This document shows, piece after piece, positions 3,523 through 13,938 of a stretch of 58,993 bases of DNA. The DNA is taken from NCBI RefSeq assembly GCF_000332315.1, contig NZ_KB235933.1, positions 404,920 through 463,912 on the forward strand, read 5' to 3'. Below the pieces are notes generated by a model. It had not been told where the DNA came from and made no database searches. It was given only the letters and a program-made list of their open reading frames with translations. The DNA is from Prochlorothrix hollandica PCC 9006 = CALU 1027 (GTDB lineage Bacteria > Cyanobacteriota > Cyanobacteriia > Prochlorotrichales > Prochlorotrichaceae). Made by a program: the position numbers and the translations under genes. Each line of letters opens with the position of its first letter. Positions within the stretch are counted from its first letter, which is position 1.

Positions 3523-6000
3523 GTGGGATGTCCTAGGGTGAGGATCTCCTGGTCTGTCTTGCTTGTTGGGGGGTTTGGGGTAAGCTTAGGGGGGGCACAA
3601 CCTAGCGGGATGGGACAAGACCAGATGATTTTGGGGCTAGCGCTGGAGGTTCTGGGGACGATCGGGACGGCAGTGTGGGAAGCGGCGGTGGAGGCCGCTG
3701 GGGAGCGGCTGGTGGAGAAGGTGTTTGGCTCGGAAGCGAAGCCGGAGCCGTTGGCCCAAGACCGGGGGATAGCGATCGTCCTTCAGGAGAATCGGGCCGA
3801 TTTGGCGGCTTTCGCGGACGTGCAGGCCCAGTGGCTGCAACTGCAACAGGCCCAGGCGGAGGCCAGCCTTGCCCAGAGTCAGGTGTTGGCGCGGGAGCAG
3901 ATGGCGCTTCAGGTGCGTTTACAGGAGTTGACGCTGGCGGTAGGGGTGCAGCAACACCGGGAGGTTTTGGCGGCACAGCAGCAGGCCCAAACGGTGCAGA
4001 TCCAGGCGGATTGGGATCGGCAGAAGATGGCGACGGTGCTGAGTCGGTTTGAGCTAGAAAGGCTGGACCCGAGTCGGCCTTTGTTTGTGTGTTCTAAGCT
4101 GCGGGTGGGAAAGTTGTGCCCGGACTATTTTGACCATGAGTTGGCGGATGAGGCGGCGCGGCAGTTGCGGGGGTTGGTGTCTAGTTTATTTGGCGCGGCG
4201 GTGCAGTTCCACAGTGCTTTTTTTGATGCGGCGGAAATTTCTGAGACCCATGCGTTGCAGTTGCGGCCCACGATTCCCCATATTCCGACGATTATGGCGT
4301 TTGGGGAGATGGGTTATCGGTGGATGACGTTTGACTATGTGTTGTGGGGCTGTGGGATGGCGGAGAAGCTGGGGGGGCAGGTGCAGTGTCGGCTGAACTG
4401 GCAGGAGATGGATCGGCGGTTGCGGGAGGGGTTGGCGGCGGGGGGGCGACAGGTGGCGGAGATCGATCGCCATGCCAAGGTGGGGGACTGGATCAGTGCG
4501 GTGCAGCAGTTGTATGCCTGTTATTTGCTGGATTGCTATGCCTTGGTGGATGGGCCAGATCCGTGGGTGGGGTTGTGGATCGATCGGCTGCGGCTGGGGG
4601 ATGGGGAGGTGGAGCAGTTGGCGCAGCCCTATCGCAAGGAGTTGCGGGGTAAGTTGCTGGGGTTGCAGAAGGCGCGGCTGGCGGCGTTGGGGCGGGTGGT
4701 GAACCGGGAGCAGGAGGCTCAGGTCAGGGCACTGGTGGCGGAAGAGGAGCGGGCGGCGCGGGAACTGGAGCAGCAGCGGCGAGATAAGGAGCGCCAGGAG
4801 GAGGCGGAACGGCAGCAGAAACTGGAGCGGGAGGAAGCGGAACGGCGGCAGCGGGAGGAGGAGCGACGCAAGGCAGAGGAGGCCCAGGAACAGCTACGCC
4901 AAGAGAGTGAACGGCTGCGGTTGGAGCAGGAGCAGTTGCGGCAGGAGACGTTGCGGTTGCAGGCGGAGGTGGAACGGCGGCAACGGGAGGCGGAGGAGCA
5001 GCAGCAACGGGCGGAGGTGGAACGGCGGCAACGGGCGGCGGAGGAGCAACAGCAACGGGAGCGGGAAGTGCAGCGAAAACGGGCACAGGCGGAAGAACAG
5101 CGGCGTGCAGTGCTGTCCAAGCCGATCGTTGTGCGGATTCAACCGCCGAAGCGGGGTTTGTTTGGGAAGCAGCCAGATCCAGTAAAGCTGGAATTGTTGC
5201 CGATTCCGGGGGGGACGTTCTGGATGGGGCAGACAGAGGCGGAAACGCGGCATTTGAAACAAGAGTGTACGGAGGAGCAATACCAGAAGTTGTTTGCCAA
5301 TGAGCTACCGCGCCATCGGGTGACGGTGCCGCCCTTTTGGATGGGGCGTTATCCGGTGACCCAGGCCCAGTATGAGGCGGTGATGGGAAATAATCCGGCG
5401 ACACAATATAAGTCTAAGTTTGTTGGACCGGATCAGCCGGTGGTTGGGGTGAACTGGGATCAGGCGATCGCGTTCTGTCAAAAACTAACGGAACTGTGTC
5501 GGGAGCAACTGCAAGGGGGCAAGATTGTATTGCCGACGGAGGCCCAGTGGGAATATGCCTGTCGGGCGGGGACAGAAACGGCGTTTTATTTTGGCGATCG
5601 CCTGGAACCGCACCAAGCCAACTTTGACGGGAATTTCACCTATAACGGCTCTAAAAAAGGGGAATATCGCCAAGTAACCACGCCGGTGGGCAGTTTTCCG
5701 GCCAATGCTTGGGGATTGCAGGATCTGCACGGCAATGTGTGGGAGTGGTGCCAAGATGAGTTTCATGAGTCTTACGCTGAGAAACCAGAAGCCTTGAAAC
5801 GGGATGGCAGTATTCCCTGGGAAGATAGTAATTCAAATGTACTAGACGACGATCGATCTGGCCAAATCCGCGTGCTGCGTGGCGGATCTTGGAGCAACTA
5901 TCCGAGGTACTGTCGGTCGGCGGATCGCGACGGGGGCGCGCGCGACTACTTCTACAACCTCAGGGGTTTTCGGCTTGTTCTTGCCTCCAGGACTTCCTAA
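3523..6000 (+). CDS. coiled-coil protein with C-terminal FGE-sulfatase/C-type-lectin-like domain; DGR-type variable 3' end
   Basis: This is up to 825 residues from a GTG at 3523; an ATG at 3610 is an equally good start and removes a weakly signal-like leader. The middle (about 400-530) is an extreme Glu/Arg/Gln coiled coil. Residues about 555-820 are an SUMF1/FGE-like domain: PIPGGTFWMG, PVTQAQYEAVMG, LPTEAQWEYACRAG, GLQDLHGNVWEW and the terminal RVLRGGSW...GFRLV. The fold is known both in formylglycine-generating enzymes and as the scaffold of hypervariable DGR proteins. FGE catalytic cysteines are not evident, so a binding role is more likely than catalysis. Between GGSW and GFR most codons are NNC or NNT (agc aac tat, tac, gac, ggc, gac tac ttc tac aac ctc), as expected where template AAC codons have been mutagenised. 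No reverse transcriptase or template repeat is in the window. Confidence 0.8.
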   Translation: MGCPRVRISWSVLLVGGFGVSLGGAQPSGMGQDQMILGLALEVLGTIGTAVWEAAVEAAGERLVEKVFGSEAKPEPLAQDRGIAIVLQENRADLAAFADVQAQWLQLQQAQAEASLAQSQVLAREQMALQVRLQELTLAVGVQQHREVLAAQQQAQTVQIQADWDRQKMATVLSRFELERLDPSRPLFVCSKLRVGKLCPDYFDHELADEAARQLRGLVSSLFGAAVQFHSAFFDAAEISETHALQLRPTIPHIPTIMAFGEMGYRWMTFDYVLWGCGMAEKLGGQVQCRLNWQEMDRRLREGLAAGGRQVAEIDRHAKVGDWISAVQQLYACYLLDCYALVDGPDPWVGLWIDRLRLGDGEVEQLAQPYRKELRGKLLGLQKARLAALGRVVNREQEAQVRALVAEEERAARELEQQRRDKERQEEAERQQKLEREEAERRQREEERRKAEEAQEQLRQESERLRLEQEQLRQETLRLQAEVERRQREAEEQQQRAEVERRQRAAEEQQQREREVQRKRAQAEEQRRAVLSKPIVVRIQPPKRGLFGKQPDPVKLELLPIPGGTFWMGQTEAETRHLKQECTEEQYQKLFANELPRHRVTVPPFWMGRYPVTQAQYEAVMGNNPATQYKSKFVGPDQPVVGVNWDQAIAFCQKLTELCREQLQGGKIVLPTEAQWEYACRAGTETAFYFGDRLEPHQANFDGNFTYNGSKKGEYRQVTTPVGSFPANAWGLQDLHGNVWEWCQDEFHESYAEKPEALKRDGSIPWEDSNSNVLDDDRSGQIRVLRGGSWSNYPRYCRSADRDGGARDYFYNLRGFRLVLASRTS
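5881..5985 (+). other. candidate DGR variable repeat (VR)
   Basis: Thirty-five codons run from GGSW to GFRLV at the 3' end of the FGE-fold gene. The invariant-looking codons (GGSW, PR, CRSA, GFR) alternate with codons whose third base is C or T and whose first two bases vary, the footprint of adenine-specific mutagenic homing on AAC/AAT template codons. Family precedent is strong, since many cyanobacterial DGR targets are FGE-fold proteins, but non-DGR paralogues share this ending. Confidence 0.45.
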
Positions 6001-6468
6001 CCCTTTAATCCTTCTTACCCTCTTACCCTTTATTACCATATACTTATATAATCATTCATCCTTCTTACCCCCTCGCGCTGGGGCGCGATCGAAATTTTTT
6101 TTGCCAAAAACCACGTTTTCCACAGGCTTCTTGCGCTACGCTCTGTCCTAGGCCCAGAACTCCGGTTTCCGTCCCTAGGGCCGTTAAATGCTAGATTTCC
6201 CCCGATAAGAAACCGGAGTTCAAGAAAGACTGCTTAGAAACCGGGTTTCTTATGCGCTCAAGTCTACCATCTCCCAAATTTAGCAACAGAAACCCGGTTT
6301 CTGTCCCCCTGCCGCCCCTGCCCGCAGTCACTCCCTGCTGTGCCCAGAACTCCGGTTTCTGTCTCCAGAGCCGTTAAATCCTAGATTTCCTGGCCATCCT
6401 CGCCCCCCACCGCAACCTCCCGGTCTCCATGCTATAGTGAGCGCACCTTGAGAAAGAGCGATCGAGGG
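6001..6468. repeat. intergenic repeat cluster with AAACCCGGTTT palindromes
   Basis: This 468-bp gap holds two imperfect direct repeats of about 50 bp, at 6152-6201 and 6341-6391, sharing GCCCAGAACTCCGGTTTC, CCGTTAAAT and CTAGATTTCC. Between them are AAACCGGAGTT, GAAACCGGGTTTC and the 17-bp palindrome CAGAAACCCGGTTTCTG. No gene is recognised. A DGR template repeat was looked for here and not found. Confidence 0.6.
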
Positions 6469-7053
6469 ATGATTGCCCCCACAGCCCTAGCCACTCTGCC
6501 CCTGCGGCGCTGGACCGTTGCCGAATATCACACCCTAGCAGCAGCAGGCATCCTCACCAGCCAAGACCGGATCGAACTGCTAGACGGACACCTCGTAACG
6601 ATGAGTGCCAAAGGTCGCCCTCATATCATTGCCTTGCGGCTTTTAGCCCAAACCTTCAGCAACGCCCTCCAAAATCAACGCCTCATCTTCCTCCAGGATC
6701 CGATCGCCCTCAGCCCCACCTCAGAACCCGAACCCGACCTCACCCTCGTCCAGGGCCAAGAACTAGACTACCTCCAGCGCCACCCCCAACCCCACGAAAT
6801 TGACCTCATCGTCGAAGTCGCTGACTCCACCTTGAAAACCGACTGTGAAGTCAAAAGCCTACTCTATGCCCAAGCGGGAATTGCCGAGTATTGGGTGGTG
6901 GACGTGGCCCAGCGGCAGGTATGGGTTTTTCGGGAGCCGGACCCAGCGGGCTATCGATCGCGGGTCATTTATGGTCCCACGGCCCAGCTTTCCCCCCTTG
7001 CCTGTCCTGCCGTGAATATCCCGATCGAGGCCATCCTTCCGCCCCTTCCCTGA
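6469..7053 (+). CDS. Uma2 (DUF820) family endonuclease-like protein
   Basis: The product of about 194 residues is of the Uma2 family, a PD-(D/E)XK-fold group much expanded in cyanobacteria. Visible motifs are RWTVAEYHTLAAAGIL, RIELLDGHLV, the EPDLTLV strand and DLIVEVADSTLKTD, followed by YAQAGIAEYWVVD. The acidic residues in EPDL and IVEVAD plus the downstream lysine fit the nuclease active site. A TTG at 6448 would extend the protein by seven residues; the ATG at 6469 behind GAGGG fits the family start better. The physiological role of the family is poorly known; many copies lie near mobile DNA, as here. Confidence 0.85.
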   Translation: MIAPTALATLPLRRWTVAEYHTLAAAGILTSQDRIELLDGHLVTMSAKGRPHIIALRLLAQTFSNALQNQRLIFLQDPIALSPTSEPEPDLTLVQGQELDYLQRHPQPHEIDLIVEVADSTLKTDCEVKSLLYAQAGIAEYWVVDVAQRQVWVFREPDPAGYRSRVIYGPTAQLSPLACPAVNIPIEAILPPLP

Positions 7054-7080
7054 GCCATGATTGCCATTCCCCACGTTATC

Positions 7081-7166
7081 AGTACCAGTAGGGTGCGTTA
7101 GCATAGCGTAACGCACCACCTGACTACTGGCAAAAGGTTTGTGTGACAGTAAACTACTGCTTGACC
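7081..7166 (+). repeat. 86-bp direct repeat, left copy
   Basis: Identical to 9240-9325 at 82 of 86 positions by eye. It contains the hairpin GTGCGTTA...GTAACGCAC, a motif common in cyanobacterial intergenic DNA. The two copies bracket the AAA-ATPase/TOPRIM gene pair. Confidence 0.9.
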
Positions 7167-7238
7167 AGTTGCCAATGAGACCTTCCAGGCGACCTGTAAG
7201 ACTGTAAGCTAGTTATGGAGAACTATGGGAAGCATCGA

Positions 7239-8363
7239 ATGCTAAATTCCTTTCAAATCGAAAATTTTAGGCTTTTCCAGAACCTTGAAGTTGGCAAGTT
7301 AAGTCGAGTCAACTTAGTTGTTGGTAGAAATAATGCTGGAAAGAGCACTTTCCTTGAGGCATTAGAACTTTATGCTAGTAATGCTTCTGCCAATGTTCTC
7401 CTTGACCTCGTTGAGTCTAGGCAGGAAACTTGGTTTAGTGAGGCACAACCCCATTCTCAAGATTTCTTGGGCAATCCTATAAGACATCTCTTTTTTGGCC
7501 ACCAATTGCCAGGTATAGGTGAAGCTGGTATCTCTCTTGGAGAAGTCAACTCGTATGATAAGCTTCGTATTGGTGCGGCTGCGTACCAAAACAAAAGTGA
7601 CGAAGAAGGCACTATGAGAAGAATTCGGATTCGTGATTTTGAAATTGATGATGAGGTCTCCAATATTGAATTTTTCCTCGTTGCTGAGGAAAGAGAAAAG
7701 TCAAGAAGACTCTTCAGGTTAGATAGAGATGTTAGAGACATCCGTCGCTCGAATAGAGTTCTTTATGGTCGTCAGGAACCTGAGTTCAAGTATACATGGC
7801 AACTTGTTTCAACAGAAAATATGCCAAATCGTAAGTTAGCTGCTCTTTGGGATCTGACGAGTCTAACAAATTTAGAATCAGAGATTATTGCCGCCCTCGG
7901 ACTAATTGATGCGCGAGTCTCTGGAGTTGCTTTTGTAGAAGATATCAGTAAAGGTCGCTCAAATGACAATCGTATTCCATTAGTAAAAATTGAAGGAATA
8001 GATGAGCCATTACCTCTTAAAAGTATGGGAGATGGCATTACGCGCTTGTTTCACATAATTGTTGCTCTTGTGAATGCTCGTAATGGTCTACTTTTGATTG
8101 ATGAATTTGAAAACGGGCTGCACTGGAGCATTCAGCCTAAAGTTTGGGATATAGTTTTTCAGTTATCCGAAAGGCTAAATGTTCAAGTTTTTGCAACTAC
8201 TCACAGTCGAGATTGTTTAAAAGGCTTTGACAATGCCTGGAATAAATATCCTGAACTCGGTACTTTCTTCAGGCTTGATGCGAAGGATGACCTGATTAAA
8301 GCAACAGAGTATACATCTGAAACTCTTACTGATGCGATCGACATGGATGTTGAGGTTCGATGA
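7239..8363 (+). CDS. ABC-type AAA ATPase of an OLD/PARIS-like defence module
   Basis: About 374 residues from the ATG at 7239; an ATG at 7215 adds eight. It is an SMC/RecF-like ABC ATPase (AAA_15/AAA_21 type). The N-terminal strand (FQIENFRLFQNLEV) leads into Walker A GRNNAGKST. A signature-like LKSMGDGITRL, Walker B GLLLIDEFENGLHW and the switch histidine in ATTHS follow. The domain is continuous with a helical insert of about 150 residues, as in OLD and AriA ATPases. The stop overlaps the TOPRIM gene start by four bases (ATGA), so the two proteins are probably made together and act as a complex. Composition is AT-richer than the neighbouring core genes, pointing to transfer. A defence role is inferred from architecture and context. 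Confidence 0.85.
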   Translation: MLNSFQIENFRLFQNLEVGKLSRVNLVVGRNNAGKSTFLEALELYASNASANVLLDLVESRQETWFSEAQPHSQDFLGNPIRHLFFGHQLPGIGEAGISLGEVNSYDKLRIGAAAYQNKSDEEGTMRRIRIRDFEIDDEVSNIEFFLVAEEREKSRRLFRLDRDVRDIRRSNRVLYGRQEPEFKYTWQLVSTENMPNRKLAALWDLTSLTNLESEIIAALGLIDARVSGVAFVEDISKGRSNDNRIPLVKIEGIDEPLPLKSMGDGITRLFHIIVALVNARNGLLLIDEFENGLHWSIQPKVWDIVFQLSERLNVQVFATTHSRDCLKGFDNAWNKYPELGTFFRLDAKDDLIKATEYTSETLTDAIDMDVEVR

Positions 8364-9001
8364 GCAGAATGAGCGATGTTTGCAAGCAAGATACAGATAA
8401 AGTTTTACTAGTGGAGGGAGATAATGATTGTCATGTAGTCCTGTCCTTATGCGCAGCCCATACTGTTCCTGAAAACTTTGGAATATATCAATGCGGCTCT
8501 GATATCCAAGTTCTAAAGCGGCTGAACGCTTTGATTAGTCGTCCTGAGCCTCCGCAAGTAATTGGAATTATGCTTGATGCTGATAAGTCTTTGGAAGTAA
8601 GATGGAGTAACATACAAAGTAAGTTGAGTCATTACAACTATACATTTCCAATGACTCCTGACCCTGATGGGACAGTAATTAAAAGCCTATCAAATCAGCC
8701 TAAACTAGGTTTCTGGCTAATGCCAAATAATCAAATTCCTGGGATGTTAGAGGATTTCTGTGCAGAACTTGCAGAGCCAGAATCTTTGAGTTTTGCCCAA
8801 GAATGCGTAGAGCAAGCAAAGGTAAAAGGATTGTCAACTTTCAAGGAAGTTCATCGTAGCAAAGCTGTAATACATACTTATTTGGCTTGGCATGATCAAC
8901 CTGGTTATCCACTAGGGAGAGCAATTACAAGACAAGCCTTACGCCCCCATAGTGATATTGCTGTAAAATTTACAAATTGGCTAAGCTGTCTCTTTACTTA
9001 G
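8360..9001 (+). CDS. DUF3226 TOPRIM-like protein, partner of the ABC ATPase
   Basis: The product has 213 residues. The N-terminal LLVEGDNDCHVV supplies the TOPRIM glutamate, and GIMLDADKS supplies the DxD. The following LGFWLMPNNQIPGMLEDF is typical of DUF3226. Such TOPRIM domains in ATPase-coupled pairs are thought to be metal-dependent nucleases that cut DNA or RNA after the ATPase senses infection; in PARIS the equivalent AriB cuts tRNA. The start overlaps the ATPase stop by four bases; an internal ATG at 8369 is an alternative. No further gene follows in the module. The family assignment is from the motifs and the nuclease role is inference. Confidence 0.8.
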   Translation: MSRMSDVCKQDTDKVLLVEGDNDCHVVLSLCAAHTVPENFGIYQCGSDIQVLKRLNALISRPEPPQVIGIMLDADKSLEVRWSNIQSKLSHYNYTFPMTPDPDGTVIKSLSNQPKLGFWLMPNNQIPGMLEDFCAELAEPESLSFAQECVEQAKVKGLSTFKEVHRSKAVIHTYLAWHDQPGYPLGRAITRQALRPHSDIAVKFTNWLSCLFT

Positions 9002-9179
9002 CACTGGTGTCGCAACACCTAACACTGTGTTGGTGCGGACGGTACAGAGAGTATCGGTGGGAGTTTTGAGGTTATCTGCCGCCGCACAACTTCACCGTTA
9101 TGCTGCAAGGCATCGATCGAGACCGTTCTTGGAGCGTTGGACCGACCCGTTGCACCGACCAATAATGCGCTCCGGGTCT
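9002..9179. other. gap between defence modules, no convincing gene
   Basis: The sequence after the TOPRIM stop holds a loose inverted repeat (CGCAACACC / GTTGGTGCG, about 9011-9039) that may end transcription. A minus-strand frame from 9180 to about 9028 is open for some 50 codons but matches nothing I know. Confidence 0.3.
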
Positions 9180-9242
9180 CGATCGCCTACGAGGCTTGTT
9201 GCTGTTTCAACTGTTCCACTTCCTCCAGCAACTCATCAAAGT
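9180..9242 (-). repeat. 63-bp exact copy of the 3' end of the gene at 16942-18447 (att-like)
   Basis: Bases 9180-9242 are identical to 16935-16997 in the same orientation. They encode the last 18 codons and stop of the 501-residue membrane protein plus seven bases beyond. Displaced gene 3' ends of this kind mark the far boundary of elements that integrate into the 3' end of a gene and restore it. The flanking bases differ at once on both sides. Confidence 0.9.
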
Positions 9243-9325
9243 ACCAGTAGGGTGCGTTAGCATCGCGTAACGCACCACCTGATTACTGGCAAAAGGGTTG
9301 TGTGACAATAAACTACTGCTTGACC
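9240..9325 (+). repeat. 86-bp direct repeat, right copy
   Basis: Second copy of the repeat at 7081-7166, with four mismatches. Its first three bases coincide with the end of the 63-bp gene-tail repeat. A shorter related segment, TAGGGTGCGTTAGCATA, recurs near 16838-16854. Confidence 0.9.
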
Positions 9326-9424
9326 CGTAACTATTCAGGGGCTGACTGACTGACACAAGTCCCTGAAGCCTAGCGTGGAGGGGGTTTTCAAAAGAGGGAA
9401 AGTCCTGACTGGCTGACAGATCTG

Positions 9425-11536
9425 TCAGGGGAAATTCTCAAGTTGACTAACTTGACATTCACTTGAAATAGATAACCTCTTTAGAATTTTCTTGATAGTC
9501 AAATCTTTCAGCCATTGCTGTATGGCTTCTACTTGTTTCAACTCTGTTGGTAATAGTTCTTGATAAATAGATAGTTCCTGAGAGAATAATATTTCTTTGA
9601 AGTATTTTGTATAATTCTCAGGATCCGTAGATATTTTATTCCATTCAATGGGTGTAGTCGTAGTAATTACGATATCATTGAAGCCAGAATTTTTCAAGTT
9701 AAGGGAAGTCGCTAAAACATAATTTACTAGTGACCCTGCGAATGTATAGTAATGTATATGAGAGTTCTTAAAAAACATGGGGACTTGATTATAGCTAGTC
9801 TCTTTTCTGAAAATTTCAACTAATTGAAAAATATCATTCCTTAGACTCTTTTCAATAATTTTCAGATCTAATTTACAATTATGAATCATTTCCCATATAT
9901 GATGGAATATGAATGTTTCCCTGATCAAGGATGACGAATAATTGTAAGATAAGTTAGTGGCGCAATCTTGGAATTTAGATGGGGTTACTTCAATATGGCT
10001 TTTAGATATTTTTTTGATCTTCCACTGAGTTCCGGCAAATCTAATAACTTCGTTTATCGATAACTTAAATATATTCTCCATGGGTACCTCACCTATAACT
10101 TTACTACTATGTTTAATCTCAACAGTTTGTGTACTTAGTGCAAAATTTCCATAAATCAAACGCTGATCCTTAAGGAAATATAAATTCCTTCCGGCTCCAT
10201 ACTGGTTTTTAAATCCATGCTTAACTAGATACTCTTGTTCAGTAGAAGCATCTAATATCTTTTCTAAGATATCTCGACTTAAGTAGTCTTGGCTGTCAAA
10301 AATCTCCAAAAAATCTTTGACTTTTGTATATTGACCATTTTTTCCTAGGAGAACACTAAAACACTGCTGGTTGATAGCACCAAAAAGTTCATACGGTTCA
10401 TAAATTGGCAGCTTACCATGTTTAGCAGCATCAATAAAGGCCATAAATAGTAAACAGTCTATGAGTTTAGTTTCTTGTTTTGTGATAAGACAGATGACGT
10501 TAGTTTTATTCTCACGGCGATTACTTCTGCCGATTCTCTGTAGAAATGAGTCAATTCGATATGGTGGATCCCAAAGAATCACGGCATCAATATCACCTAT
10601 ATCAATTCCCAATTCTAATGTATTAGTTGCAATACAGACAGAGTTGGCAGATGTATTAGAAAAACGATTCTCAATATCTAGGCGAATATCTTTTGACAAA
10701 GAGGAATAATGTGTGAAAATACCTGGCTCTAAGTATTTATCTTTTCTTAAAACGTCCGCTAGGATCTCACATTTTTTCCGAGAATTAACAAAAATCAAGA
10801 ACTTTGTTTTCTTGCGACCTTTAAATAGTTGCTGAATAAAAGGAAGTAATTCCTGCGAATTATATAAGTATCGAATATGTGAATCAATGGGGCGACTCGT
10901 AGGAAAAGATAAAATTTTCACTTCACTACTCTGGCTAAAGAAAACTTTAGAAATCCCATCAAAGCTCCCAATCGTTGCTGATAAAGCTACACGTTGTAGG
11001 TTATGATTAATTTTAGATTCTAAGCGCTTTGCTAAAACTGATAATTGCATTCCTCTTTGGGTATTATAAAGTAAGTGAATTTCATCAAAAACTAAGCATT
11101 TTATGTTGTCTAAAGTTTGATCGTTTCTGATTAAAATAACTTCTAGAGACTCTGGAGTTGTAATTAGAATATGAGGTTTAATCGACTGTTTCAAGTCATC
11201 TCGATCTCCGTGCCTCACCCCAACCTTGATACCTAGAGAAGATAGTTTATGGCTCAGTCTTTTTTCTAAATCATTAACAAGAGCCTTGGTGGGGGAAATG
11301 TATAGAAGAATAAGAACATTTTTCTGAACCGCTTGTTTCCAGTAGCGACTGACAAGAGGAGCCATCACTGCTTCAGTTTTCCCCGACCCAGTACCGGATG
11401 CTAAGATTACATTCTCTTCGTTCAATAAGGGTTTAATAACTGCTTCTTGGATTGGTCGCAGTGACTTAAAACTGCCATAGAAGGCTGTTGCTACTCTAGA
11501 GTCTAATAGGTGTGATGCTGTTGGATTATTCATCAT
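9425..11536 (-). CDS. Lhr/YprA-like DEAD/DEAH superfamily 2 helicase
   Basis: The 703-residue product is an SF2 helicase. The Q-motif-like region SLRPIQEAV is followed by motif I ASGTGSGKTEA, motif Ia SPTKALVNDLEKRL, motif Ib TTPESLEVIL, DEIH at 150-153 and SAT at 185-187. The second RecA domain carries FLIFVNSRKKCEIL, IATNTLELGIDIGDID and motif VI QRIGRSNRR. The order and the WDPP segment fit Lhr-like helicases such as BrxHI and SngC of BREX and Shango defence. It is the last gene of a four-gene operon, and its ATG overlaps the preceding stop (TAATG). The C-terminal 350 residues are unassigned and probably give substrate specificity. The gene is strongly AT-rich and lacks HIP1 octamers. Confidence 0.9.
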   Translation of the reverse strand: MMNNPTASHLLDSRVATAFYGSFKSLRPIQEAVIKPLLNEENVILASGTGSGKTEAVMAPLVSRYWKQAVQKNVLILLYISPTKALVNDLEKRLSHKLSSLGIKVGVRHGDRDDLKQSIKPHILITTPESLEVILIRNDQTLDNIKCLVFDEIHLLYNTQRGMQLSVLAKRLESKINHNLQRVALSATIGSFDGISKVFFSQSSEVKILSFPTSRPIDSHIRYLYNSQELLPFIQQLFKGRKKTKFLIFVNSRKKCEILADVLRKDKYLEPGIFTHYSSLSKDIRLDIENRFSNTSANSVCIATNTLELGIDIGDIDAVILWDPPYRIDSFLQRIGRSNRRENKTNVICLITKQETKLIDCLLFMAFIDAAKHGKLPIYEPYELFGAINQQCFSVLLGKNGQYTKVKDFLEIFDSQDYLSRDILEKILDASTEQEYLVKHGFKNQYGAGRNLYFLKDQRLIYGNFALSTQTVEIKHSSKVIGEVPMENIFKLSINEVIRFAGTQWKIKKISKSHIEVTPSKFQDCATNLSYNYSSSLIRETFIFHHIWEMIHNCKLDLKIIEKSLRNDIFQLVEIFRKETSYNQVPMFFKNSHIHYYTFAGSLVNYVLATSLNLKNSGFNDIVITTTTPIEWNKISTDPENYTKYFKEILFSQELSIYQELLPTELKQVEAIQQWLKDLTIKKILKRLSISSECQVSQLENFP

Positions 11537-12726
11537 TAGTCCTCTTCTTCTAATAAGTTATCTAGACATTGAACAATAGCACAGATTGTCTGTCTGGCAC
11601 GGTTTTGAACTGCTAAATATGCTTTTTCATTAATGACCATTTCTATAGCCCCAGAGACCGCACTACTATAAACATCCCAGTCATAAGCTTTGCCATGAAA
11701 ATCTTTAATTTTATTAGCTAGTTCTCTCAGATCTTCAACCTCTAAAGGACTCATTTCAAAGGTTTTAAGGTCGTCAAACAAGCTATAATTATGATGCCAT
11801 CGTCCTTTAGAATGAAGCAATAATTTACACTTATCAATAAAACCAGGAGTTACTGCAAAGAAGCTTAGTCCCTTAAAAATTTGGTTGTCAAAAAAATTAA
11901 ACAAGTTATCAAAAGCAGCTTGCTGATATCTAATATCTCTTAAATTGTAGATGATATCTTCAAATTCATCAAAGAGTATTACTAAGCCTCGTAGCCCTGA
12001 TGCAACGGCTAAGGTATCCAGATCCTGGAGTGCATACCAGCACTGTTCATAGTCGTTAATTTTCCAGTTTAGTATTGTTGATGATGTGTGTTGCCGCCAG
12101 CGCAATGGAGCAAAAATATCTAATGGATTAGAATACGAAATACTTCCTTTTGTAAGTAGCTCTCTTTCAATATCACGTTTCCTATAAGAGCCACGCTGGT
12201 ATAGCCAGTCTATAACAATATCCTCATTAATTTTTTCACTGTTCCATGCTCTTAAAGCAAGAAAAAGAGGCGGAGAGTCAATAAATTTATGTGGATAATT
12301 CCATTTACCACTATTACTTATTGCCTGCCAGGTTTTATTAGCAGAATAAGTACTAAGAACCCAATCGAAAAATACCCCGATACCTTTCTTGTCATCTTGA
12401 GAAGATTCTGGTACTTCTAAATTCCGAAAAATCTCGCCTGTTATTTGATCCATACGATTAAATCGAATACCCGACTGGGAATCTAGTGTCACAGAGCTAA
12501 CTGCATAGTTTTGATCTAATGCAGTCTCTCGAATAAAACGAATCAGGTGACTTTTTCCGGATCCATAGTTAGCCTTTAATAGGAGAGCTTTATCAGTATG
12601 ATCTTTTAGAATCTTTCTGAGTTCTGCAATCTCTGTTTGACGACCAACTGTAAAGTAGTCAATGTAACCTTCTGGTGGTATTCCATATCGTAATGACTCT
12701 ATTACTTGTCTAGGGTTAGCATTCAT
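11536..12726 (-). CDS. BrxC/BrxD-type (DUF2791) P-loop ATPase, second copy
   Basis: The 396-residue product is a BREX-type ATP-binding protein (Pfam BrxC_BrxD). It begins with the characteristic VIESLRYGIPPEGYIDYFTVGR, followed by Walker A YGSGKSH near residues 54-60, Walker B LVILFDEFED near 250 and a sensor-like FFAVTPGF. Such ORC/Cdc6-like ATPases are thought to load or regulate partner enzymes on DNA. It lies three bases after the first ATPase and overlaps the helicase start by one base. The sequence differs clearly from the first ATPase except at the N-terminal signature and P-loop, so the two look like ancient paralogues that may form a hetero-oligomer. The function in anti-phage defence is inferred. 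Confidence 0.88.
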   Translation of the reverse strand: MNANPRQVIESLRYGIPPEGYIDYFTVGRQTEIAELRKILKDHTDKALLLKANYGSGKSHLIRFIRETALDQNYAVSSVTLDSQSGIRFNRMDQITGEIFRNLEVPESSQDDKKGIGVFFDWVLSTYSANKTWQAISNSGKWNYPHKFIDSPPLFLALRAWNSEKINEDIVIDWLYQRGSYRKRDIERELLTKGSISYSNPLDIFAPLRWRQHTSSTILNWKINDYEQCWYALQDLDTLAVASGLRGLVILFDEFEDIIYNLRDIRYQQAAFDNLFNFFDNQIFKGLSFFAVTPGFIDKCKLLLHSKGRWHHNYSLFDDLKTFEMSPLEVEDLRELANKIKDFHGKAYDWDVYSSAVSGAIEMVINEKAYLAVQNRARQTICAIVQCLDNLLEEED

Positions 12727-12729
12727 AAT

Positions 12730-13938
12730 TTATTCATCCTTAATCGTAGCCATTACACTTATATAAACTTCTTCTACGTCTCGTTCTTCCCCTTCCATAC
12801 AATCATCAAAGTAGGCAATCAGACTTGCAACCATAACACGCCAGAAATTCACTCCTGAAAACTCTGAGTGTTCTGAATGCAATCTACTTACAAATTCTTT
12901 GACTTTAGACTCTGAAGGTAATTCGTCTGAGTCATCTGGATAAGCAGCAGTATAAATATCGAGAATTTTACTTGCAGCTACTTGGTAGTCAGAGAGATTA
13001 ACTTCATTAGCATCGAGGTTCCACACTTTCTTCAGGGCACGAGGTGGTTGTTGTTCTGGCTGCCCAAGTCGAGCAGCCAAGGCACCATACTGTTGAATAC
13101 CATGTTTTGGGTCATTATAGAAATCAGGGGTTGTCGCATAAATTAAGAATAGTCCTGGAAGCTGCTCAATATTATTGATTAAGGCCAGTAAGTTATTCTG
13201 AGCATTTTTGAGGGCACTTTTACTCATGACTGAGTAGGACTGCTCAGCTTCATCAAATAAGATGACGAGACCTTTATAGCCTGAAAGCTTTACAAAGTTT
13301 CCCAAAGATTGCAACATAAGTTTAGAATTTTCTTTGTTGATAATCTTCGCAATTTGGAATCCTTTATATTGAGAGATTTTGCCTTCACCGATAAACCACT
13401 GTAGAATCTCAGCTCTTCTTTGGTCTTGATTACCTCCTACTGAATCTGGTAAAAATGTAGACCAATAAGCAGCAATCATTTTTCTGAAGTCAATGTCAAT
13501 ACTCTGGTCAGCCATGAGCTTATCTTTTGCCATGACATATTCCTCATGGGTAACGACTGATTTAGATATGCTCTTACCATTGGCAAGATAGTTGAGTGAC
13601 TCACTTAAAAGGTAGCGATATGAGTAGACGCTTGAATCTTGATTTTGAGAGTATGAGGTAGGTGTTGCAATCTTCCTGACAATTTCAGCAAATACCTGCT
13701 CAAACTTATTAAGTGCAGCACTATCGGCTGTAAGTTGAACATTAGAGATAAGACATCCTTCTTCAAAGGCTAGTTCTCTGACTAGACTAAAAAAATGAGT
13801 TTTTCCAGATCCCCATGAACCGCTGATAAATCGAATAATACCTTTATTTCCTAGCCCCTTTAGGTGAAACTTTTTAATGCCCTTGAGAAGCTTTTCATTA
13901 CCTACAGAAAAGTAATTGACCCCGTGAATAGGCGGCAT
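12730..13938 (-). CDS. BrxC/BrxD-type (DUF2791) P-loop ATPase, first copy; 5' end cut by an ISL3 insertion
   Basis: The present frame from ATG 13938 encodes 402 residues with Walker A SWGSGKTHF (41-49) and Walker B LVILFDEAEQS. The N-terminal SLRKG-MPP-YFSVG signature is split by this start. Reading upstream, 16 more in-frame codons reach base 13986. Removing the IS and one 8-bp target duplication joins 13987 to 15255-15256 and restores an ATG. The ancestral protein was therefore 419 residues and its start overlapped the preceding gene's stop (ATGATTAA). The insertion removed only the start codon. An AAAGG sequence lies a few bases before the ATG at 13938, so a protein lacking 17 residues could still be made, if transcription crosses or starts in the IS. 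Confidence 0.85.
   Translation of the reverse strand: MPPIHGVNYFSVGNEKLLKGIKKFHLKGLGNKGIIRFISGSWGSGKTHFFSLVRELAFEEGCLISNVQLTADSAALNKFEQVFAEIVRKIATPTSYSQNQDSSVYSYRYLLSESLNYLANGKSISKSVVTHEEYVMAKDKLMADQSIDIDFRKMIAAYWSTFLPDSVGGNQDQRRAEILQWFIGEGKISQYKGFQIAKIINKENSKLMLQSLGNFVKLSGYKGLVILFDEAEQSYSVMSKSALKNAQNNLLALINNIEQLPGLFLIYATTPDFYNDPKHGIQQYGALAARLGQPEQQPPRALKKVWNLDANEVNLSDYQVAASKILDIYTAAYPDDSDELPSESKVKEFVSRLHSEHSEFSGVNFWRVMVASLIAYFDDCMEGEERDVEEVYISVMATIKDE

Follow-up and report, generated by a model that had tools for sequence, protein, structure and literature searches.

The window examined here, a stretch of 58,993 nucleotides from the genome of Prochlorothrix hollandica PCC 9006 (5.65 Mb in 13 contigs), carries a gene whose end is predicted to be a variable repeat (VR) of a diversity-generating retroelement (DGR), and it raises the question of which template repeat (TR) and which reverse transcriptase (RT) could have written that end. 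Neither an RT nor a template RNA was found in the window, as the first-pass annotation had already stated, and the genome as a whole holds one DGR RT, at least three VR families and two templates, the window being a remote DGR target without a findable template.

The target gene and its variable repeat

The gene and the parts of its product are arranged as follows.

3523..6000, + strand: predicted DGR target gene, 825 aa, with a GTG start at 3523, an in-frame ATG at 3610 as alternative start, and the stop codon at 5998-6000
3616..4830, + strand: N-terminal module, an alpha/beta domain (about residues 151-327 of the folded piece) followed by a long helix
4690..5130, + strand: coiled coil rich in Glu, Arg and Gln, with approximate bounds taken from the translation; a long helix in the part folded with AlphaFold2
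5194..5979, + strand: FGE-sulfatase (C-type-lectin-like) domain bearing the VR (PF03781, E 2.7e-50, residues 558-819)

The VR sits at the 3' end of the FGE domain, the PF03781 match running to residue 819 of 825. No Pfam family scored above its cut-off in the N-terminal module, and the Borrelia_P83 match of the protein was rejected as a coiled-coil match below its own cut-off. The module is common to three further proteins of the genome and to a few proteins of other cyanobacteria, where it stands before FGE domains or TPR repeats. An AlphaFold2 model of the 405-residue N-terminal piece reached a mean pLDDT of 79; Foldseek returned no match to the module model at E <= 0.001, and a second fold comparison with residues 151-327 gave Z scores of 7-9 to HpaA-type and TolB N-domain-like folds, a range that unrelated models reach as well. 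The body of the gene is closest to a paralogue at 1,010 kb of contig C9 (C9:1,010 kb), at 40% in the N-terminal part and 63% in the FGE domain, and at 75-81% on the nucleotide level upstream of the VR. This paralogue ends in a VR of another family (family 4, below), so the VR and the body of the window gene have separate histories.

Window positions 6448-13938 form a defence-type neighbourhood, with a Uma2-like gene, an ATPase/TOPRIM-type pair (PDC-M38A/B), a BrxHI/SngC-like helicase and two BrxD/SngB-like ATPases. With these as its neighbours the gene does not lie inside a VMAP ternary locus. Its product may be a sensor in defence or signalling.

The 3' end of the gene and the sequence behind it contain the following elements.

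5869..5994, + strand: predicted family-3 variable repeat of a DGR; identity within the family sets in at about 5869, and AGGACT, the last motif in common, ends at 5994
5893..5964, + strand: hypervariable core; at 13 sites, each an inferred adenine of the template, the window departs from the inferred sequence
5965..5994, + strand: 3' part of the VR without variable sites
5989..5994, + strand: AGGACT, the form that the IMH-like 3' boundary of VR and TR takes in VRs
6073..6088, + strand: inverted repeat TCGCGC-TGGG-GCGCGA, placed 84 nt past the first base of AGGACT, with a T run after it

The 13 core sites are 5894, 5899, 5908, 5923, 5929, 5932, 5935, 5936, 5938, 5947, 5953, 5959 and 5960, counted against a template that is inferred from the VR family rather than observed. 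The boundary motif differs between the two kinds of repeat, being AGGACT in the VRs, AGCACT in the first template of the genome (TR1) and AGTACT in the second (TR2). Hairpins similar to that at 6073-6088 lie 64-84 nt behind five other VRs of the genome; it may be a target hairpin or, equally possible given the T runs, a terminator.

A DGR hypervariable end of a coiled-coil/FGE-fold protein, starting at 5881, had first been proposed from a run of NNC and NNT codons between GGSW and GFR. GGSW begins at 5881 and GFR at 5965, and the codons between them do end in C or T in 16 of 24 cases (67%), against 31% over the whole ORF. The same level is reached by 21 of the 802 24-codon windows of the ORF (about 2.6%; the windows overlap and the figure is uncorrected), and the codon-ending bias alone is only suggestive, too weak to prove a VR. 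The proposal was borne out by sister VRs that share the block, and its starting point was close to the beginning of the block at about 5869.

It is this comparison with sister VRs that decisively assigns 5869-5994, on sequence grounds, to the DGR variable repeats. Three sisters in the genome share the block (C9:157,951, C9:158,884 and C9:750,842). Against the two gap-free ones, at C9:750 kb and C9:157.9 kb, the window differs at 19 and 18 sites within the VR, all of them at codon positions 1 and 2, with 0 at position 3 and 0 synonymous. Codons for the same amino acid are spelled identically in 24/24 and 25/25 cases in the VR block, as compared with 39/66 and 37/75 in the domain body (Fisher p 4.8e-5 and 6.8e-7, values that treat codons as independent), and upstream of the block nucleotide identity to these two copies is 51-65%. 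The lack of synonymous drift in the block implies that little time, relative to the divergence of these paralogues, has passed since the last homing event. The match of the family-3 differences to adenines is partly circular, the template being deduced from the VRs themselves. Searches with the inferred template of family 3 (TR3) also brought up real templates in other cyanobacteria; these encode NNNPRNCRSANRNRN, just as the inferred sequence does, which can be taken as an independent check of it.

Two of the sister VRs belong to one gene (L049:3236-6004, C9:156-159 kb), a Ser/Thr kinase with two tandem FGE domains that each end in their own family-3 VR. The two domains at C9:157-159 kb are 94-99% identical in the body and 68% in the VR, with differences at 22/69 positions in the VR versus 17/396 in the body (p 1.8e-10). 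The VR of the second domain, at C9:158.9 kb, has an apparent compensating -1/+1 frameshift, which accounts for its few third-position differences.

Retroelement, templates and repeat families of the genome

The sole DGR RT of the genome, of 362 aa (C9:101,797-102,882), has the motifs IGNLTSQ and YVDD. It is adjoined by Avd (NF033474, E 8.6e-40) and template TR1 lies beside the pair, with three FGE targets in the same stretch of C9. The first-pass annotation had supposed that an RT would act on the window from a distance, and this system, at C9:101-103 kb, acts on it remotely if at all. A second PF00078 match, on contig C6 (L002), was rejected as a DGR RT: it aligns poorly to the DGR RT (E 0.16) and reads GIPTGPDTS in place of IGNLTSQ. 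The C9 DGR locus also holds an AAA_5 (AAA/MoxR-like) ATPase, VMAP-C, a trypsin with EAD9, and Trypco2, and its 922-aa target matches SAV_2336_NTERM and is a putative vWA-type protein, although no Pfam match bore this out. By this gene content (MoxR-type ATPase, putative vWA-type protein, VMAP-C) the locus is predicted to be a VMAP ternary conflict system. An early guess at a conflict or sensor architecture thus agrees with the make-up of the DGR locus and with the defence-type genes that adjoin the window gene.

TR2 lies elsewhere, at C4:225.5 kb (L048:11530-11782), where a truncated fragment of an FGE gene ends in a template with its RNA scaffold. The 19 kb examined around this template showed no RT, and two 100-N gaps are situated 4-5 kb upstream. 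The VRs that match TR2 are scattered over contigs C1, C4, C9 and C12, and we infer that the C9 RT uses TR2 in trans. Both templates differ from their VRs almost entirely at adenines: TR1 at 13/13, 10/10 and 11/14 mismatches with its three targets (34/37 in total), and TR2 at 15/15, 10/10, 13/13 and 14/16 with its four VRs (52/54 in total).

PF03781 matches 19 loci in the genome, and their 3' ends sort into several VR families. Family 1 comprises the TR1 targets and family 2 the TR2 targets. Family 3 groups together the window, C9:750.8 kb and the two tandem domains at C9:157-159 kb, and family 4 consists of C1:494 kb and C9:1,010 kb; single VRs occur at C5:703 kb and C9:1,112 kb. For families 3 and 4 and the two single VRs no template was found in the assembly. 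Other FGE targets of the genome carry Ser/Thr kinase, NACHT/HEAT or caspase domains. Two loci, L018 and L021 (C1:1,488 kb and C12:83 kb), have an identical family-2 VR, one of them beside a 100-N gap, through either recent duplication or an assembly artefact.

The missing template of family 3

The search for a template with adenines at the variable positions beside a DGR RT, which had been suggested as a check of the window VR, was half successful, as the RT was found and a near-identical template was not. In the assembly the inferred TR3 matched only the four family-3 VRs, TR1 (77% over 91 nt), TR2 (70%) and short chance sequences. The motif behind templates, AGYACTCYTNNNNGYCAGARY, occurs without mismatch in the genome only at TR1 and TR2. 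R1, a covariance model of 130 positions built from 17 template 3' flanks of relatives with this genome left out, makes the search independent of template sequence and uses neither RT nor VR; in the genome its only matches at E values of up to 10 were TR1 (111.5 bits) and TR2 (91.2 bits). By DNA, motif and covariance model alike, the gapped assembly thus yielded no template that matches the window VR at all non-adenine sites. Nor was a template of this family found in GTDB-220 contigs, which gave two unrelated MAG matches, in viral contigs, which gave none, or in plasmids, where five matches of 75-76% came from cyanobacterial plasmids.

One family-3 locus is exceptional. Directly behind the VR at C9:750 kb there is an avd-like stub of 34 codons, MKDLAIIQKTYDLIKWYIPILESF..., with 56% identity to Avd (E 1.6e-5 in the genome search), in the position that Avd occupies in the intact C9 cassette. 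The target gene of this locus is broken by an internal TAA stop. The rest of this avd was not found elsewhere, and beside the other template-less VR families no remnants of avd or RT were found. The locus is probably what remains of a cassette that held TR3. Runs of exactly 100 N occur in 6 of the 12 genome stretches examined, one of them at a distance of about 1.1 kb from the stub; rather than lost, TR3 may therefore be concealed in a gap.

The window gene is therefore best regarded as what it probably is, a remote DGR target that was stranded when its own cassette, with TR3, was lost. On this reading a DGR RT, working with Avd, would have reverse-transcribed a template RNA rich in AAC and AAT codons, making errors at its adenines, and the resulting cDNA would have taken the place of the homologous 3' stretch of the gene. 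Some ten positions, all on one side of the FGE/C-type-lectin fold, would thereby have been drawn anew, while the framework codons would have been rewritten in identical form. TR3 would most likely have stood in a separate cassette, of which the C9:750 kb locus, with a family-3 VR in a broken gene and an avd stub, would be the wreck. Its loss would have left the window gene and the two VRs at C9:158 kb with their last-drawn variants, no longer diversified unless TR3 survives in a gap. The existence of TR3, its place at C9:750 kb, its homing in trans into the window gene, its loss and the end of diversifying activity at the window VR are all steps that we infer.

In a possible though distinctly less probable alternative the target is live: an intact TR3, perhaps with a second RT, would lie in an assembly gap, and diversification of the window gene in trans would continue through either the C9 RT or this second one. 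Recent homing, indicated by framework codons that are identical among family-3 members, the frequency of 100-N runs near these loci, and the distance that can separate a template from its RT (TR2 in this genome; 1.4 Mb from its only close RT in another, G096) all speak for it; against it are the failure of DNA, motif and covariance searches to find TR3 in the assembly and the broken state of C9:750 kb, its only candidate home.

Diversification by the existing C9 DGR with TR1 or TR2 despite imperfect homology is very improbable, even though its RT and Avd are intact and the inferred TR3 matches TR1 at 77% over 91 nt. The window has 40 mismatches with TR1, only 11 at A, and 44 with TR2, only 20 at A, whereas the true targets of both mismatch almost only at A, and homing from TR1 would leave TR1-type non-adenine sites in the window; both templates were rejected for the window on the ground that most mismatches fall at non-adenine sites. 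Equally hard to credit is ordinary gene conversion with positive selection among FGE paralogues and no retroelement. The paralogues are numerous, at 19 FGE loci, and conversion could also homogenise synonymous sites; however, it would homogenise amino-acid-changing sites too, the differences are confined to codon positions 1-2 at inferred adenines with the neighbouring codons identical, and the TR1 and TR2 families show the same pattern against real templates in the same genome. Stranding after the loss of TR3 thus remains the preferred reading.

Template RNAs across cyanobacteria and in known systems

The window VR belongs to a kind already known, the remote DGR VRs. In a survey of cyanobacteria, remote targets were tied to the TR of their own genome by identity of >50%, and the variable proteins described there resemble that of the window in that a multidomain gene distant from the RT ends in a C-type-lectin/FGE domain, with kinase, caspase-like and conflict-type partners and transposase-rich surroundings (PMC7517822). 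Unlike those targets, the window VR fits neither template of its genome at non-adenine sites. In Thiohalocapsa PB-PSB1, FGE/CLec targets occur in VMAP ternary conflict systems, targets are served in trans, and there are loci that have lost RT or TR and VRs without a matching genomic template; read data showed variation as well as structural variants with intact RT or TR (PMC10907252). In contrast, the window was studied from the assembly, and its gene lies outside a ternary locus. The kinase, NACHT/HEAT and caspase targets of the present genome resemble DGR targets of both studies (PMC7517822, PMC10907252).

The DGR of BPP-1 (mtd, avd, brt) shares with the present system an RT with Avd, a template with adenine mutagenesis, a 3' boundary motif with distinct TR and VR versions, a structured RNA behind the TR and, as a candidate here, a hairpin behind the VR (PMC3240598, PMC12875486). 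It is compact and works in cis, unlike the remote window target. Between VR and hairpin BPP-1 has 4 nt (4-34 bp across phage DGRs), as against 64-84 nt behind AGGACT here, where the hairpin is possibly a terminator. The structured RNA behind cyanobacterial TRs is of a different family from that of BPP-1. The latter folds and recruits RT-Avd (PMC12875486), and by analogy the cyanobacterial scaffold likely does the same.

This scaffold, a by-product of the analysis, is a conserved RNA structure, about 130 nt long, that follows DGR templates; for its copy at the C9 locus, cmscan against Rfam returned nothing. With R1, templates were found in 84/291 genomes of the class. The pairs of the model covary strongly, with 98.6% of cells paired and 42 double changes against 9.5 in shuffles, and far lower values in slid controls. 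Copies in this genome lie at L003:9474-9601 (- strand) and L048:11652-11782 (+ strand), and about 130 loci occur in other cyanobacteria. In an unsystematic sample of 30 scaffold loci, templates separated from an RT recur: for eight of them the flanks of about 1.5 kb, as far as sequence was available, showed no RT match, and a wider search of these eight, out to about 9 kb if the contig was long enough, left seven without a match and one with a weak match. In G096, a one-contig genome, a scaffold-bearing template lies 1.4 Mb from the only close RT. In G005, also of one contig, the scaffold is present with no RT match anywhere, and a protein with the N-terminal module of the window gene and an FGE domain directly precedes it.

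We suggest tentatively, as an idea with somewhat less than an even chance of being right, that cyanobacterial DGR templates are free-standing guide-RNA genes: one RT-Avd would serve several unlinked template RNAs through the shared scaffold, each RNA owning a dispersed family of sensor genes, and templates would come and go independently of the RT, so that VR families such as that of the window would be left stranded. If templates do work in trans, diversification in cyanobacteria would be a guide-RNA network rather than a matter of compact cassettes, and surveys that seek RT, TR and VR side by side would miss most of it. Since the covariance model finds templates without RT or VR, such a network can be tested across genomes.

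At three loci (L143, L145 and L146) the scaffold stands directly behind adenine-poor, VR-like ends of FGE genes (A fraction 0.08-0.11) instead of an adenine-rich template; these are either self-overwritten templates or decayed loci.
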